Virus record (IMG/VR): IMGVR_UViG_3300032053_000004
Span: 1 to 64,000 of that record
Strand: one strand, 5' to 3'
Length of the DNA stretch: 64,000 nt
Source: a virus
Made by a program: the position numbers and the translations under genes. Shown here in pieces: positions 10,034-36,850 of this stretch (positions are counted from its first letter, which is position 1; each line of letters starts with the position of its first letter). The notes below the pieces were generated by a model. That model saw only the letters and a program-made list of their open reading frames with translations, had not been told where the DNA came from and searched no databases.

Positions 10034-10429
10034 ATGCGGATTTTTATTCTGGATGACAACCAAGACCGGCACGATGGATTCCGTAAGGCTTTTTCGGATC
10101 CAGATCACGTTCTCATCCACGTTTATACTCATAACCAGGCCGTAAAGGCTCTCCAGGACAATCCGGCGTTCGATGTGGTCTATTTGGACCACGATCTCGG
10201 GGACCTCCAGGATGGGGATAAGGATGACTACGGAAGAGAGCTGACGGGTCAAGATGTGGCTCGTTTCATCGCCAGGGAGCTCGATAGTAGCAAGCTCCCT
10301 GGAGAGGTCATTATCCATTCTTGGAACCCGGTCGGAGCACGTGCCATGCTTCAGATGCTCCAGGATGTTGTTCAGGTGTCGTGTCGTCCATACACGGTTC
10401 CCGGCCAAACTCAGATTCACTTCAAGTAG
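10034..10429 (+). CDS. cREC (cyclic-phosphate processing receiver-like) protein
   Basis: 131 residues. The pattern IFILDD at the start, VVYLDHDLGD near residues 55-64, TGQDVARFI near 80 and IHSWNPVGARAM near 102-113 is that of receiver-like cREC domains, described in RNA-repair and conflict systems and predicted to act on cyclic phosphate ends or metal-bound nucleotides. No transmitter or DNA-binding domain is attached. Own promoter with GGAGG. The biochemical role in this phage is unknown. Confidence 0.7.
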   Translation: MRIFILDDNQDRHDGFRKAFSDPDHVLIHVYTHNQAVKALQDNPAFDVVYLDHDLGDLQDGDKDDYGRELTGQDVARFIARELDSSKLPGEVIIHSWNPVGARAMLQMLQDVVQVSCRPYTVPGQTQIHFK

Positions 10430-18111: not shown

Positions 18112-18149
18112 AGATACCCTCCGCCAGCTTAAATGCTCGGAGGGTATCT
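18112..18149 (+). terminator. terminator-like hairpin
   Basis: 12-bp perfect stem, 18112-18123 with 18138-18149, in the gene-free stretch before the 18200 promoter. Confidence 0.45.
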
Positions 18150-20847: not shown

Positions 20848-20918
20848 TGAGGCATCGTTCAACGGTAGGACAAGGGACTTTGAATCCCTGAATCTAGGTT
20901 CGATTCCTAGTGCCTCAA
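20848..20918 (+). tRNA. tRNA-Gln (anticodon TTG)
   Basis: Acceptor TGAGGCA/TGCCTCA, anticodon stem AGGGA/TCCCT with loop CTTTGAA, T-arm CTAGG-TTCGATT-CCTAG, discriminator A. CCA not encoded. Reads CAA. Confidence 0.9.
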
Positions 20919-20923
20919 CTCAT

Positions 20924-20998
20924 GACCCCATAGTTTAGCGGCTAAAACTCTGGACTTTCAATCCGGCAATTGGGGTTCGATTCCCCATGGGGTCACCA
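20924..20998 (+). tRNA. tRNA-Glu (anticodon TTC), CCA encoded
   Basis: Acceptor GACCCCA/TGGGGTC, anticodon stem CTGGA/TCCGG with loop CTTTCAA, T-arm TGGGG-TTCGATT-CCCCA, discriminator A, encoded CCA. Reads GAA. The tilS gene starts seven bases later. Confidence 0.92.
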
Positions 20999-21004
20999 AG
21001 AATC

Positions 21005-21625
21005 ATGATTCATCTCGCTTGCGACGTACCAAAGGACCACTTCTTCCTGGCTTGTTCAGGTGGGGTGGATTCTATGGTAGCTCTCGACTTCCTCTTGCGA
21101 GGAAAGCGAAGGCCGCACCTGCTCTATATCGACCATGGAACAGAACATGGGCGAGAAGCGAAGGCGTTCGTCCAAAAGCGCGCGGTAGAACTGTCACTCG
21201 CTTACCAAATTTGGTATACAGGTCCCCGTCCCGCCCACCTTTCGGTAGAAGAACACTGGAGAAACGAGCGGTACGCTCTCTTTCACGCGATGAAAGCGCC
21301 AGTCATCACTGCGCACCATCTCGACGACGCGGTTGAGTGGTGGATCATGTCAGCCTTGCACGGAAACCCGAGGCTCACTCCCGTAACGAACAAGAACGTG
21401 GTCCGTCCCTTCCTGTTCACGCCGAAGCAGGAGCTTCGCGACTGGGCGGAACGTCATCAGGTTTCTTGGATTGAAGACCCAACGAATGCAACAGGAGAAC
21501 ACGCAAGAAACGTTGTGCGCCACGAAATCATGAAACATGCGCTCCACGTAAATCCGGGTCTTCATAAGACCGTAAGAAAATTGTATGGGCCTTTAGTTCA
21601 ATTGGTCAGAACCTCCGGCTCATAA
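21005..21625 (+). CDS. tilS: TilS-like tRNA(Ile)-lysidine synthetase, catalytic domain only
   Basis: 206 residues from the ATG at 21005; a possible start at 20987 would lie inside tRNA-Glu. ACSGGVDSMVAL near residues 17-28 is the PP-loop SGGxDS that binds ATP; TAHHLDDAVEWW near 100 matches the TilS HHxDDQxET region, and VSWIEDPTN plus RNVVRHEI near 155-172 match the end of the N-terminal catalytic domain. Cellular TilS usually carries 100-200 more residues of C-terminal tRNA-binding domains. It converts C34 of tRNA-Ile(CAU) to lysidine. The stop codon lies inside the following tRNA gene. Confidence 0.85.
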   Translation: MIHLACDVPKDHFFLACSGGVDSMVALDFLLRGKRRPHLLYIDHGTEHGREAKAFVQKRAVELSLAYQIWYTGPRPAHLSVEEHWRNERYALFHAMKAPVITAHHLDDAVEWWIMSALHGNPRLTPVTNKNVVRPFLFTPKQELRDWAERHQVSWIEDPTNATGEHARNVVRHEIMKHALHVNPGLHKTVRKLYGPLVQLVRTSGS

Positions 21626-21660
21626 CCGGATAGTTGGCGGTTCAAGTCCGCCAGGGCCCA
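21587..21660 (+). tRNA. tRNA with anticodon CAT, probably tRNA-Ile2 (lysidine-dependent)
   Basis: Acceptor GGGCCTT/AGGGCCC, anticodon stem TCCGG/CCGGA with loop CTCATAA, T-arm GGCGG-TTCAAGT-CCGCC, discriminator A. CAT could mean Met, but the acceptor/T-arm sequence resembles bacterial tRNA-Ile2, and the tilS gene directly upstream overlaps it by 39 nt, so reading AUA after lysidine modification is the better call (inference). Confidence 0.85.
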
Positions 21661-21668
21661 CTAAAAGA

Positions 21669-22208
21669 ATGACGAACGTAGCGCGAATAGAAGACTTCTT
21701 TCATCGAAACGTGATCGATGAATACAAGAGCTTGTCCAATGAAGAAATTGGTCAAGCAATTGCGGAGAAGTCTCTTCCGTTCGCCGTGCTCATGGAGCAT
21801 TGGGAGCAGGATTTCAACATTGGAACGCTTCTCCGCAACGCAAATGCTCTGGGCGCTCGTGAAGTCTTCTATGTCGGCACCAAGCAGTGGGACCGTCGAG
21901 GCGCAGTGGGCGTACAGAACTACACAAAGCTTCGCCATCTGACCTCAGTTCATGAACTTCAAGATCGCTACAATTTTGTAGCACTAGAACAAACGGAAGG
22001 GAGCGTGTCACTCACCAAGTTCGTCTGGCCTGAAAACCCACTGATTGTTATCGGTTCAGAAAGCCTTGGCATCAGTGCGGAAACTCTCGCACTCTGCCCG
22101 TACCGGGTAGTGATCGAGCAGCGCGGAAGCGTCCGTTCGATGAACGCCGCGTCTGCTTCAACCGTTGCGATGTACGACTTCATAACGAAACGAGAGAGTC
22201 TTCTATGA
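21669..22208 (+). CDS. SpoU/TrmH-family RNA 2'-O-methyltransferase
   Basis: 179 residues. The three SPOUT motifs are present: NIGTLLRNANALG near residues 55-67, PLIVIGSESLGIS near 120-132 and SVRSMNAASASTVAMYDF near 152-169. Such knotted methyltransferases use S-adenosylmethionine to methylate ribose 2'-OH in tRNA or rRNA. It starts nine bases after tRNA-Ile2, so a tRNA substrate is likely; which nucleotide (for example 18 or 34) cannot be told. Confidence 0.85.
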   Translation: MTNVARIEDFFHRNVIDEYKSLSNEEIGQAIAEKSLPFAVLMEHWEQDFNIGTLLRNANALGAREVFYVGTKQWDRRGAVGVQNYTKLRHLTSVHELQDRYNFVALEQTEGSVSLTKFVWPENPLIVIGSESLGISAETLALCPYRVVIEQRGSVRSMNAASASTVAMYDFITKRESLL

Positions 22209-22463: not shown

Positions 22464-22537
22464 GGGCCCGTAGCTCAGTTGGTAGTAGCTACTCCCTTTT
22501 AAGGAGATGGTCGTCAGTTCGATCCTGACCGGGCCCA
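22464..22537 (+). tRNA. tRNA-Lys (anticodon TTT)
   Basis: Acceptor GGGCCCG/CGGGCCC, D-arm AGCT/AGCT, anticodon stem CTCC/GGAG with loop CTTTTAA, T-arm GTCAG-TTCGATC-CTGAC, discriminator A. Reads AAA. Confidence 0.9.
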
Positions 22538-22601: not shown

Positions 22602-22686
22602 GCCCCGGTGGTGGAAATGGCGATACACTCTGGACTTAAAATCCAGCGCCCGCAAGGGATTGAGGGTTCGACTCCCTCCCGGGGTA
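22602..22686 (+). tRNA. tRNA-Leu (anticodon TAA)
   Basis: Class II tRNA with a long variable arm (CGCCCGCAAGGGATT). Acceptor GCCCCGG/CCGGGGT, anticodon stem CTGGA/TCCAG with loop CTTAAAA, T-arm GAGGG-TTCGACT-CCCTC, discriminator A. Reads UUA. Confidence 0.9.
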
Positions 22687-32831: not shown

Positions 32832-33122
32832 ATGATCAAGCCCATTCTGACTCTCGCGTTCTTCGTCTCGGGCGCTGCTCTCCTTGCAGTCGCGCTGCAA
32901 CGGCCGACTTCCGCTCCTCCGGTCGCGAGCGGTGACGTCGTGCTCGGTCCCGTCGCGGTCTCGCCTGTGGTTCTGCCCGAGACGGTCGTCGTGGCGTCTC
33001 CTCGCCTCGCCGTGGCGTCTCCTCGCCGCGAGCGGCCTGCGACCCGTCGCGAGTTCACGCGGCCTCTCGAGCCCTGCTGGACGCCGGCCGGAAGTGTCCG
33101 CGTCTGGGACACCCAGCTGTAA
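32832..33122 (+). CDS. membrane-anchored or secreted Pro/Val-rich protein, leaderless
   Basis: 96 residues. Hydrophobic start (ILTLAFFVSGAALLAVALQ) acts as signal or anchor; the rest is Pro/Val/Arg-rich with repeats (VVASPRLAVASPRRE). Divergent from LYPF copy D; a six-codon remnant occupies the equivalent place beside copy C. Confidence 0.55.
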   Translation: MIKPILTLAFFVSGAALLAVALQRPTSAPPVASGDVVLGPVAVSPVVLPETVVVASPRLAVASPRRERPATRREFTRPLEPCWTPAGSVRVWDTQL

Positions 33123-33137
33123 ATCCACGTCTTCCGC

Positions 33138-33174
33138 CCGTACCGGGACCTGCCCATCGGGTCCCGGTACGGGA
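33138..33174 (+). terminator. terminator-like hairpin
   Basis: 14-bp perfect stem (33138-33151 with 33161-33174), 15 nt after the 33122 stop. Confidence 0.6.
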
Positions 33175-33350
33175 ACCCCGTAAATCGGGGGTGGGGTGGA
33201 GTATAGGGGGTATGGTATACCATATAGGGTATAGGGTATGATAGGGATGGGGGCGTAAATCGGGTGAATTTCTTCGTATGGGGAACCGCATGCATACGGA
33301 AAAAAATATATTTCGACCCGTTTGTATACCGATTCAATTTTTGCGGTCTC

Positions 33351-33480
33351 GTTTCCGTTTTTAGATATATATGCCATTTTGAAAAATTTTGAAAAGTTCC
33401 GTTTTTAGATATATCTATCTATATGCCATTTGTTGAAGAAAGGTTTTTTGAAAGTTCCGTTTTTAGATGTATACATATAA
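33351..33480. repeat. three imperfect direct repeats
   Basis: TTCCGTTTTTAGAT(A/G)TAT occurs near 33352, 33396 and 33455, twice followed by ATATGCCATTT, with spacings of 44 and 59 nt. Confidence 0.65.
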
Positions 33481-33564
33481 AATAAACCTTTTTGTGAGAG
33501 AAAACTTCATTTCCAAAATTTTTTGGGTCCCTTCCACATAAATTTATTATTTCTTGTTAGAATC

Positions 33565-33906
33565 GTGAAATACTGGAAGGTTCTCGATGGGAAATGGACC
33601 ACTGACGATTTAAATATTAAAACAAGTTCAGAATCTAAATTCCATAGAATTTCTATCCGTGTTCTTAACAAATTGAGATGGGACTATCCCACACTCAAAA
33701 AAACCTATGATGAGTTAAATAAAAAATTATCTGACGAAATAATTAATTTAGGTGATGAAGAATATGAAATTCATAAAAAATGGCATGATGGAGAACTCAA
33801 AAAGGGCGACGCTGGGGATTGGTTGGAGCCTGAAATTAAGGAATTGATGACAAAAGCTGGTTGGGATTTTGAAGAGTTTTGTGAGGAATCTGAACGAGAG
33901 TCATAA
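33565..33906 (+). CDS. hypothetical protein
   Basis: 113 residues from a GTG at 33565; a longer frame starts at 33523. Polar, Lys/Glu/Asp-rich, helical, Trp near both ends. First gene of the AT-rich half. The next ATG follows its stop directly. Confidence 0.5.
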   Translation: MKYWKVLDGKWTTDDLNIKTSSESKFHRISIRVLNKLRWDYPTLKKTYDELNKKLSDEIINLGDEEYEIHKKWHDGELKKGDAGDWLEPEIKELMTKAGWDFEEFCEESERES

Positions 33907-34176
33907 ATGTTGAATCTTTCTAAAATTGCCTCTCGCGTTGCTATACTCACTGAACCTAAAACTTGTGACGGTTGCGGTTTCCCCGCCCGTTCTTCTTTAA
34001 TTTTGAATTCTCAGGGCGACGCCTCAATTTGCCCTATGTGTTCCGATATTGAAAATTTCCATAAAACTGGAGAACGTGAACCTACCCAATGTCCTCTTTC
34101 CTTGGTGCCCGGTTCCAAGAGTACTTCGGCCTCACCCACGATGACACCAGCTACGCCGGCAATGTCCTGGCCCTGA
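33907..34176 (+). CDS. zinc-ribbon protein with KIASR N-terminus, C-terminus probably disrupted
   Basis: The start MLNLSKIASRVAIL matches the motif of the next genes. CDGC (residues ~19-22) and CPMC (~42-45) form a likely zinc ribbon. From about 34087 the base composition becomes GC-rich and the rest of this frame (Ser/Thr/Pro-rich) overlaps a better frame, so the native C-terminus was probably replaced by an insertion. Confidence 0.5.
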   Translation: MLNLSKIASRVAILTEPKTCDGCGFPARSSLILNSQGDASICPMCSDIENFHKTGEREPTQCPLSLVPGSKSTSASPTMTPATPAMSWP

Positions 34177-34364
34177 CCAAGCAGGTGATGCAGCAGGACC
34201 TACAGGTCAGGTCGGTACGGCGTGGCGAGCTCAAGCAACGGCAGGTATCGCTCGGCAGCTTCGAAGAGCCTGACTTCGAGTTCGACCAGCAAGATATCGA
34301 TCGAGGGCTTGTGCCTGATGCCCCCGGCGGCAACCCACCACCCCGACAAGGAGACGCGTACTGA
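34089..34364 (+). CDS. hypothetical protein in a GC-rich islet
   Basis: 91 residues, GC-rich in an AT-rich neighbourhood. Starts MSSFLGARFQEYFGL, ends in a Pro/Gly tail. Gln- and Asp-rich. Possibly the 3' remainder of a longer transferred gene. Next ATG overlaps its stop by one base. Confidence 0.45.
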   Translation: MSSFLGARFQEYFGLTHDDTSYAGNVLALTKQVMQQDLQVRSVRRGELKQRQVSLGSFEEPDFEFDQQDIDRGLVPDAPGGNPPPRQGDAY

Positions 34365-34570
34365 TGGAAACAACCGTAGCGAAGAAACTGATTCTCGAGG
34401 TCGACGGCAAAGAGGTCGAGTACCCGATCCTCAACGGACTCCACGACGACTTCATCTACCGAACCGTCGTCAAGATAGACGGCGAAGACATCCAGCTTTC
34501 GCAGACGCGAGAACCCGTGGGAGGCTGGGACGCCTGGAGGCAACGACATGGCTCTGAAAACCGATCGTAG
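34364..34570 (+). CDS. small hypothetical protein in the GC-rich islet
   Basis: 68 residues, beta-like first part (KKLILEVDGKEVEYPI), Trp-rich end. Overlaps the preceding stop by one base. Same GC-rich character, so both were probably acquired together. Confidence 0.45.
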   Translation: METTVAKKLILEVDGKEVEYPILNGLHDDFIYRTVVKIDGEDIQLSQTREPVGGWDAWRQRHGSENRS

Positions 34571-34626
34571 CGAAGTCGACCGCACAGAACTGCCGGACCA
34601 CGCGGAAAATTCCGTTAAAGTTATAA

Positions 34627-35298
34627 ATGGCATCGTCGATTGTGAAGAATGCTATGGATCTCCATAAAATAGCCTCACGCGTTGCCAGGGTCGCTCGCGT
34701 TGAGACCGTTGGCGATAGCTCAGTTCTCACTGGATTAATTTCAGATGATATAAAAGCCCGTTTTAAAATCCCCGCCTCCGCCCAACCATTTAAATCAGGC
34801 AGTTTTTCTTCCGTTTTTGAAAATTCAGAAGGCAATATTGTTGCCTTCATCGATACGCCTAACGCTTGCTCTACTGCCTATAAAGCCGTAGGACGCAATC
34901 TCACCACTGTCCCTGAGGTTTACGATCTCGACACTTTCACAGTAAATAAACAAAAAGACAACAAACCTTATATTAGTAAGAGTTATGGCGGGTGGGATGT
35001 TGATATTTGCGTCATCGTTATGGAGAAACTCACTCCAATTTCCAGTGAGGATTATAAGGCATTTGATGATTTATTTTTATCTTATAACCAAAGAAACCCT
35101 AAAGAAGAAAAAGAAAAATTGATTAAATCACTCAACGGTTTAGAGCCTACAAATTTTCAAAAGGAAGTCATAGATTTACTCCATCGCATGAATGAAGAAA
35201 ACGTTCACCACGTAGATTTCCATCCCGGCAACGTCGCCTGGGGCCATGACGGCAAACTAAAATTAATTGATTGGGAACCAATCTTTATAGGTGACTGA
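34627..35298 (+). CDS. kinase-like protein with KIASR N-terminus, copy 1
   Basis: 223 residues. N-terminus includes LHKIASRVARV. The C-terminal part has HHVDFHPGNVAW (near 192-203) and KLKLIDWEP (near 208-216), the catalytic HxDxxxxN and metal-binding D motifs of protein-kinase-like/aminoglycoside phosphotransferase folds; SGSFSSVFE near 57-65 may be the glycine-rich loop and VIVMEKLTP the hinge. Small for the fold. No Shine-Dalgarno; ATG follows TATAA. Confidence 0.7.
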   Translation: MASSIVKNAMDLHKIASRVARVARVETVGDSSVLTGLISDDIKARFKIPASAQPFKSGSFSSVFENSEGNIVAFIDTPNACSTAYKAVGRNLTTVPEVYDLDTFTVNKQKDNKPYISKSYGGWDVDICVIVMEKLTPISSEDYKAFDDLFLSYNQRNPKEEKEKLIKSLNGLEPTNFQKEVIDLLHRMNEENVHHVDFHPGNVAWGHDGKLKLIDWEPIFIGD

Positions 35299-35301
35299 AT
35301 C

Positions 35302-35958
35302 ATGAATTTTCACAAAATCGCCTCACGCATAGCTCGCGTTGAAACCGTCGGGGACAGTTCTGCCCTCACTCGTCTTATTACCGACGATATAAAATCCCGT
35401 TTTAAAATCCCTTCTTCCGCCCAACCATTTAAATCCGGTTATTTTTCTTCCGTTTTTGAAAATTCCGAGGGCAATATTGTCGCTTTCGTTGACACACCGA
35501 ACGCTTGTGAATCCGCATATACCGCCGTAGGACGCAATCTCACCACCGTCCCTGAGGTTTACGATCTCGACACCTTCTCCGTTACTAAAGAAGACGCATA
35601 TGAAACAACAGGTGGATATGCCGAGCCCCTTGATGTTAATATTTGCGTCATCGTCATGGAGAAACTCACTCCCTTAACTCGAGAAGAAATAAATCAGCTT
35701 AATAATATAGATCCATCAGGTAGTGACGATCTCATGGACGATCCGGGAGATGCAAAAATTCGATTAGAAAAAATGCTCGAAAATATTGATGAAATACAAC
35801 GGCCATATCCCTATCCAATCGTGTATGATAAAATTGATTTACTCCAACGCATGGATGAAGAAAATATAGGGCATGATGATTTTCATCCCGGTAATGTCGC
35901 CTGGGGTCACGACGGAAAGTTAAAATTGATTGATTGGGAATCAATTTATTTTAGATAA
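35302..35958 (+). CDS. kinase-like protein with KIASR N-terminus, copy 2
   Basis: 218 residues, tandem paralogue of the previous gene starting four bases after it. FHKIASRIARVETVG at the start, SGYFSSVFE, VIVMEKLTP, GHDDFHPGNVAW and KLKLIDWES are conserved. The middle insert differs and is acidic. Catalytic residues look intact in both copies. Substrate unknown; virion-borne kinases are one option. Confidence 0.7.
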   Translation: MNFHKIASRIARVETVGDSSALTRLITDDIKSRFKIPSSAQPFKSGYFSSVFENSEGNIVAFVDTPNACESAYTAVGRNLTTVPEVYDLDTFSVTKEDAYETTGGYAEPLDVNICVIVMEKLTPLTREEINQLNNIDPSGSDDLMDDPGDAKIRLEKMLENIDEIQRPYPYPIVYDKIDLLQRMDEENIGHDDFHPGNVAWGHDGKLKLIDWESIYFR

Positions 35959-35959
35959 T

Positions 35960-36850
35960 TTAAAAACTCACTCCTCCATCTCCATCCACATCCATATCCC
36001 CTTTCCACCCCGTCGGGACTTCTAAAACTCTATCCACTTTTTTGTAAATACTGATTTCCCGGTCTTTCCTTGGTTCTATAAAAAGAAAACCGGTCATTCC
36101 GTCTTTTCCTTTCTCCACTTCTTTCGCTTTCGCCCCTTTTTCCATTTTCGCATTCGTTTTCATTTTCGTTTTGAATTTTTCTCTTTCTTTTGAAATCCAT
36201 ACAATCCTAACTTTCGGCGTCGCCATCCCCTCTTCCCCCATAATTTCAATTATCAACTTCGATCCTTCGACCCTTGCTAGAATGGCAACGTCGTCTCCTT
36301 CGTTTTTGAATTTTAAATCAGAACACGCGTTTTTATCTTTTTCGCATTTTTCTTTTTCGTTCAACGCCACCATCGCGTCCCACCCCGGGCCCACATAATC
36401 CGACAGCCTTGAATGTGCCCTCCTTTCTACAATTTTCATTCCCGCTCTTAGTGCCGCTCCGAACAGCGTTGAGCTCACTTGACACGTCCCTCCCCCCACC
36501 CCTTCCGTCAACGTTCCCATAAAAATTTCCGGTGCCGGAAAGAATCCATTTTCTTTCGTCCTCTCCCCAACCCTCGCGTTGAAACTAAACGTTTCGCCCC
36601 GTTCAATTTTCACCCCGTTCAATTTTTCCACCACTCTTTTAATATTTAAAATACGTTCCGCGCTTCCGTGAATTTGCGTTTCCTGTTTTCCTATAACATG
36701 TAGGTTCGGTTTTTCTTCTTTCTTTTCTTCTTTTTCCGTTATTCTTTCCATTTCCACTTCCACTTCTACTGTCGGCAAAACAATCGGTCGGTTATTTTCA
36801 ATATTATCCGATGTCAAAAATAATATAAATATCATTATGAAATATATCAT
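35960..36850 (-). CDS. VanW-family protein
   Basis: 296 residues. Short hydrophobic N-terminus (signal or anchor), a charged linker, then the VanW core: LNGVKIERGETFSFN, VGERTKENGF, GGGTCQVSSTLF near 118-129 and RRAHSRLSDYVGPGWDA near 141-157. The C-terminal ~80 residues are Lys-rich. VanW proteins are cell-surface proteins of unclear role (some linked to peptidoglycan/vancomycin operons). Unusual in a phage. Confidence 0.85.
   Translation of the reverse strand: MIYFIMIFILFLTSDNIENNRPIVLPTVEVEVEMERITEKEEKKEEKPNLHVIGKQETQIHGSAERILNIKRVVEKLNGVKIERGETFSFNARVGERTKENGFFPAPEIFMGTLTEGVGGGTCQVSSTLFGAALRAGMKIVERRAHSRLSDYVGPGWDAMVALNEKEKCEKDKNACSDLKFKNEGDDVAILARVEGSKLIIEIMGEEGMATPKVRIVWISKEREKFKTKMKTNAKMEKGAKAKEVEKGKDGMTGFLFIEPRKDREISIYKKVDRVLEVPTGWKGDMDVDGDGGVSF

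Follow-up and report, generated by a model that had tools for sequence, protein, structure and literature searches.

A close described parallel to the locus analyzed here is the bacterial selB-selC pair, in which the tRNA-Sec gene is nested in or overlaps selB and RNase P is predicted to leave a nonstop mRNA, and for which the idea of alternative expression was published in 2021 (PMC8124441). As at our locus, a protein dedicated to one tRNA is encoded by a gene that extends into that tRNA's own gene, and in Dyella and Luteibacter the selB stop codon likewise lies inside the tRNA (PMC8124441). The protein is an elongation factor and the setting bacterial in that case, whereas here we are dealing with a modifying enzyme, tRNA(Ile) lysidine synthetase (TilS), in a phage; moreover, the overlap is widely conserved in selB-selC but rare in phage tilS, where only the gene order recurs. 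Cellular TilS enzymes (types I and II) contact the tRNA through C-terminal domains, of which they have one or two (PMC12514573). Phage-encoded TilS has been described in Pseudomonas phages MIJ3 and PA5oct (PMC6892783) and in pelagimyophages (PMC7029224), and the portions of these two papers that were consulted report neither adjacency nor overlap of tilS with a tRNA gene. In a T4-like vibriophage, the phage CAU tRNA was shown to bear lysidine, so that it reads AUA, and the review that covers this work suggests that host enzymes modify phage tRNAs (PMC13191261); the phage described here instead brings its own adjoining TilS.

The stretch of DNA that we analyzed (hereafter the window) comprises 64,000 nucleotides, positions 1 to 64,000 of the 202-kb IMG/VR virus record IMGVR_UViG_3300032053_000004. 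It contains a plus-strand cluster in the order tRNA-Gln, tRNA-Glu, tilS, tRNA(CAU), SpoU methyltransferase, tRNA-Lys, and tRNA-Leu(UAA) (Table 1). The genes around tilS are tightly spaced, with 6 nt between the encoded CCA of tRNA-Glu and the tilS start codon and 8 nt between the end of the CAU tRNA and the methyltransferase start, and the stretches separating the genes of the cluster yielded no convincing promoter or terminator; tilS and the CAU tRNA are presumably cotranscribed. We do not claim the downstream SpoU protein as TrmL, which would act on tRNA-Leu(UAA), as all of its NCBIfam scores were far under the cutoffs; a SpoU gene of any kind is present in just 2 of 20 sister records.

Table 1. 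Features of the tilS-tRNA(CAU) cluster (window coordinates)
Feature	Position	Strand	Basis and remarks
tRNA-Gln (UUG)	20848..20918	+	CCA not encoded; Rfam tRNA 63.4 bits, ARAGORN
tRNA-Glu (UUC)	20924..20998	+	CCA encoded; Rfam tRNA 66.7 bits, ARAGORN
tilS, catalytic-domain-only tRNA(Ile) lysidine synthetase, 206 aa	21005..21625	+	ATG to TAA, 206 codons; TIGR02432, PF01171, phage relatives, PDB 1wy5/3a2k by sequence and fold
tilS/tRNA overlap	21587..21625	+	Last 12 sense codons (GPLVQLVRTSGS) and stop = tRNA 5' half through anticodon loop; sequence
tRNA, anticodon CAU, assigned tRNA-Ile2	21587..21660	+	C4:G69, C5:G68, A73; anticodon CAT at 21621-21623 (ARAGORN); CCA not encoded; Rfam 68.3 bits, ARAGORN
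tilS stop UAA	21623..21625	+	Last anticodon base and next two loop bases
SpoU/TrmH-type RNA 2'-O-methyltransferase	21669..22208	+	PF00588 76.4 bits
tRNA-Lys (UUU)	22464..22537	+	Rfam, ARAGORN
tRNA-Leu (UAA)	22602..22686	+	Rfam, ARAGORN

The open reading frame is not a chance frame, since its product scores 103.8 bits against the curated TIGR02432 model lysidine_TilS_N (cutoff, 93.6 bits) and 101 bits against PF01171 and is about 40 to 50% identical to many phage TilS proteins; the M-I motif with which it begins also opens the proteins of its relatives, backing the start at 21005. An alignment of 28 to 30 diverse phage TilS proteins revealed 24 to 26 invariant residues, including those of the PP-loop SGGxDS, and the motifs SGGVDS, HHLDD, RPFL, DPTN, and RNVVRHE are common to the window protein and its relatives, as aligned to 1wy5 and 1ni5. 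The AF2 model has a pLDDT of 95.6, with confidence dropping only at the very end of the chain, and its best PDB matches are TilS structures (TM-score of about 0.8 by query). Taken together, the curated model, the conserved residues, and the predicted fold make the identification as TilS well supported, and the TilS-specific residues whose loss would have spoken against it are retained.

The alignment to PDB structures stops at residue 227 of the 317-residue A. aeolicus TilS, which indicates that the C-terminal domains of cellular TilS are absent, and the 206-aa protein shows neither one nor two C-terminal tRNA-binding domains as found in type I and II enzymes. Its catalytic fold and conserved residues are those of cellular TilS, but it is filed as a catalytic-domain-only phage TilS, as the preliminary description of this DNA had held, and as neither type I nor type II. 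The missing domains, together with a long branch (1.07) in the TilS tree, could be taken to mean that tilS is decaying or doing another job and that its extension into the tRNA gene reflects a frameshift or a truncation of its end. We give this very little weight: the short architecture and the catalytic residues are common to all phage relatives, which are uniformly about 187 to 214 aa long and whose ends fall at a similar place, so that the window protein lacks no domain relative to them; furthermore, the last helix of the confident model (residues 186 to 204) extends into the tRNA-encoded residues (195 to 206). Only nine residues separate the conserved NPG motif from the tRNA start in the window protein, fewer than in any aligned relative, and the tRNA-encoded tail therefore occupies the place of the relatives' own tails. 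Apparent full-length matches of several relatives to this tail (e.g., in L001) were discarded, as their reading frames have already ended ahead of the tRNA and the match to the tail crosses stop codons. In the tree, which was built by a quick method with SH-aLRT support only, the phage relatives group apart from the six bacterial TilS proteins included. MIJ3 and PA5oct TilS, about 41% identical to the window TilS, are likewise short members of this catalytic-domain-only family but differ in having no tRNA in the 6.5 to 10.5 kb examined around tilS.

The CAU tRNA is canonical (Rfam E value, 9e-13), and folds strongly by itself (z, -3.4); no other sequence in the whole 202-kb record fits the pattern of a CAU tRNA. 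Scoring its identity as Ile2 versus Met, a check that had been proposed for this gene, favored Ile2. The tRNA has C4:G69, C5:G68, A73, and a paired G1:C72, and C4:G69 and C5:G68 are the dominant identity pairs of E. coli TilS (PMC12514573). Its best E. coli matches are annotated as tRNA-Ile, which we regard as supporting evidence only because the E. coli match inspected as a check bears no anticodon note, and the sister cassettes bear Ile2-like tRNAs. These three lines support assignment as tRNA-Ile2 rather than Met. The alternative, an elongator or initiator tRNA-Met whose place 3' of tilS is coincidental, draws on the tRNA-Met label assigned by ARAGORN, although every CAU tRNA gets that label, and on plain identity, which separates weakly (71% to E. 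coli ileX versus 68.5% to metT). We consider it highly improbable: E. coli metT has U:A and A:U at 4:69 and 5:68, the initiator metZ has G:C pairs at these positions and an unpaired 1:72, the best matches are to tRNA-Ile, and the pairing of tilS with a CAU tRNA recurs. Across relatives, both pairs are C:G in just 22 of 37 adjacent tRNAs, the window included, and some tRNA partners may therefore be recognized differently or not be Ile2.

To our knowledge from a literature search that was thin on subscription papers, the pairing of tilS with a CAU tRNA has not been reported before. A profile search of viral contigs selecting on TilS similarity alone yielded 80 loci in 38 clusters; all 11 tRNAs lying no more than 60 nt 3' of the tilS stop were CAU, one each in 11 of the 38 clusters, compared with 16 of the 114 other tRNAs at these loci (Fisher P = 7e-9; positional binomial P = 8e-15, with related phages not fully independent). 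Among tRNAs just upstream of tilS, 3 of 7 were CAU. A DNA-spacing scan recovered 41 tilS loci in 86 matches, nearly all with a CAU tRNA 0 to 26 nt 3' of tilS, and once these pattern-found loci were added, the adjacent pair was present in 31 of 78 clusters; many phage TilS genes have no CAU tRNA on the contig examined. On the TilS tree, adjacency requires about 10 changes, at least 4 of them forced by well supported branches (SH-aLRT). Flanking genes are common to one clade of 17 clusters, but the flanks of the window, L354, L052, L375, L362, and L430 have no homologue at any other adjacent locus. As a bacterial control, 2 of 78 non-phage-type loci had a CAU tRNA within 600 nt of tilS (L096, upstream; L109, downstream). 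The former is a Saccharibacteria contig (positions 1565-1646) in which 4 nt separate a CAU tRNA from the tilS match that follows it, an arrangement seldom met in bacteria. Judged from gene order, the adjacency looks like a portable kit for the rare AUA codon, and this recurrent phage cassette of a minimal TilS and a CAU tRNA is a new result and a stronger one than the built-in control that the preliminary description had raised.

As in selB-selC, the partner gene ends within its tRNA gene on the same strand, here with an overlap of 39 nt, as confirmed by the ORF call, Rfam, and ARAGORN. The tilS stop is formed within the anticodon loop, its T being the third anticodon base and its two A's the next two loop bases (tRNA positions 36 to 38). 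The preliminary description was right about both points, and its statement that the enzyme shares sequence with its probable substrate is supported; only its count of 13 codons and a stop needs correction, as the shared part holds 12 sense codons besides the stop. If RNase P cuts at 21586/21587, tilS should lose its stop, and once the tRNAs are fully processed the remaining tilS message would have a leader of 6 nt and lack a stop. It is a fair inference from established RNase P and 3'-end processing that a given transcript can serve either as a tilS message with its stop or as the source of a mature tRNA, so that enzyme and tRNA outputs would compete for each transcript. An observation on a sister phage contig with a tilS-tRNA pair (L001) is that it also encodes a tmRNA (494-804), which could rescue ribosomes stalled on nonstop messages.

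The overlap could be a selected feedback switch, in which tRNA folding and RNase P destroy the tilS message and keep TilS low relative to the tRNA. The geometry, by which 5' processing takes away the tilS stop, and the strength of the tRNA fold fit such a switch, and the same model was put forward for selB-selC (PMC8124441). A search for the same overlap in other phages found two further cases, both in other lineages (L358 and the fragment L212, with an overlap of about 9 nt), bringing the total to three, but most pairs lack it. The distance from the tilS stop to the tRNA in adjacent pairs ranges from -39 nt in the window through -10 (L358) and 0 (L036 and L039) up to +51 nt, and most relatives keep a spacer of 4 to 26 nt and an intact tilS stop, so the overlap is not conserved across these relatives. 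Two spacing-based pattern scans for overlaps returned 149 loci, with tilS in only one (L212). The 5' half of the window tRNA had no exact match in viral contigs, and the searches yielded no phage closely related to that of the window. Overlaps of at least 8 nt occurred in 18 of 81 other ORFs abutting a tRNA at the same loci versus 2 of 31 tilS genes; the 81 were called mechanically with a minimum length of 150 aa and may include spurious ORFs. Other ORFs thus overlap tRNAs more often, and the overlap is not special to tilS. With this control we dropped the selected overlap as the leading view and now think it unlikely: gene order recurs and the overlap does not. As a hypothesis, built-in control has its published precedent in selB-selC, and the comparative data do not favor selection.

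Instead, the overlap is probably ordinary phage gene packing, apparently tolerated. The tilS stops of L358 and L212 coincide with U8-A9-G10 and U8-A9-A10 of the tRNA, respectively, and an incoming frame meets a stop at U8A9R10 in 31 of 31 tRNA genes when read in one phase and within the anticodon loop in 16 of 31 when read in another; because the tRNA supplies these stops, a gene that loses its own stop ahead of a tRNA gets caught. The most likely origin of the window overlap would be the loss of a short spacer and the original stop, after which translation would continue to the next in-frame stop, the UAA at anticodon-loop positions 36 to 38.

Of the Ile codons in the 202-kb record, 34.5% are AUA (24 per 1,000); this codon is less frequent (10 to 12 per 1,000) in the GC-rich part holding tilS, and tilS itself has none. 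The GC content falls steeply from about 52% to about 38% near window positions 33000-36000, and imperfect tandem repeats (33353-33495) lie next to this drop. Either a genome in two parts or a chimeric contig may underlie the record, and the GC-rich part with tilS may not share a genome with the AT-rich rest. Several other features of this DNA were recorded. Twenty copies of CGTATCGGG lie at window positions 919-32667 (e.g., 24676, 9419, and 26705), with none beyond the first 33 kb of the 202-kb record, and several of them lie within a G+C hairpin that immediately precedes GGAGG and an ATG, as a repeated 5'-leader or ribosome-site element. Paralogues with the motif NLYPFLSKxxIxTRI occur at 18133 (+), 27810 (-), 30737 (-), and 32223 (-), and the copy tested had no Pfam match. 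Between 19727 and 25190, several small, otherwise unrelated ORFs have similar tails (EVVEG, VVEG, EVVEC, ELLEA, and KVLEA), which may reflect a DNA element common to the ends of these genes; in L004 (6165-7196), an uncultured phage of 635 kb, a C-terminal tail like RDxxLNxIGI is common to successive small proteins. A cREC_REC protein (cyclic-phosphate processing receiver domain) is encoded at 10034-10429.

We propose, with a probability of roughly three in four, that at this locus a large phage carries a self-contained pair for decoding AUA, consisting of a minimal TilS and its probable substrate tRNA-Ile2(CAU), with an overlap that arose from a lost spacer and an effect on processing that is probably tolerated. 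TilS would place lysidine on C34, so that a CAU tRNA that accepts Met would instead accept Ile and read AUA, and with lysidine on its own tRNA, the phage would not rely on the host supply of tRNA-Ile2 or TilS. A bolder version, in which phages repeatedly build a portable AUA module from a catalytic-domain TilS and their own tRNA-Ile2, with recognition unlike that of cellular TilS, and in which the window overlap sets the enzyme/tRNA ratio per transcript, strikes us as doubtful. Phage TilS has so far been reported as an isolated oddity, and the recurrent CAU tRNA neighbor gives it a concrete, testable substrate and role. A natural minimal TilS that lacks the domains thought to read the acceptor stem would offer a direct way into the sorting of CAU tRNAs between Ile and Met, and the overlap, as a phage counterpart of selB-selC, would provide a cheap test case for tRNA processing of an overlapping message.
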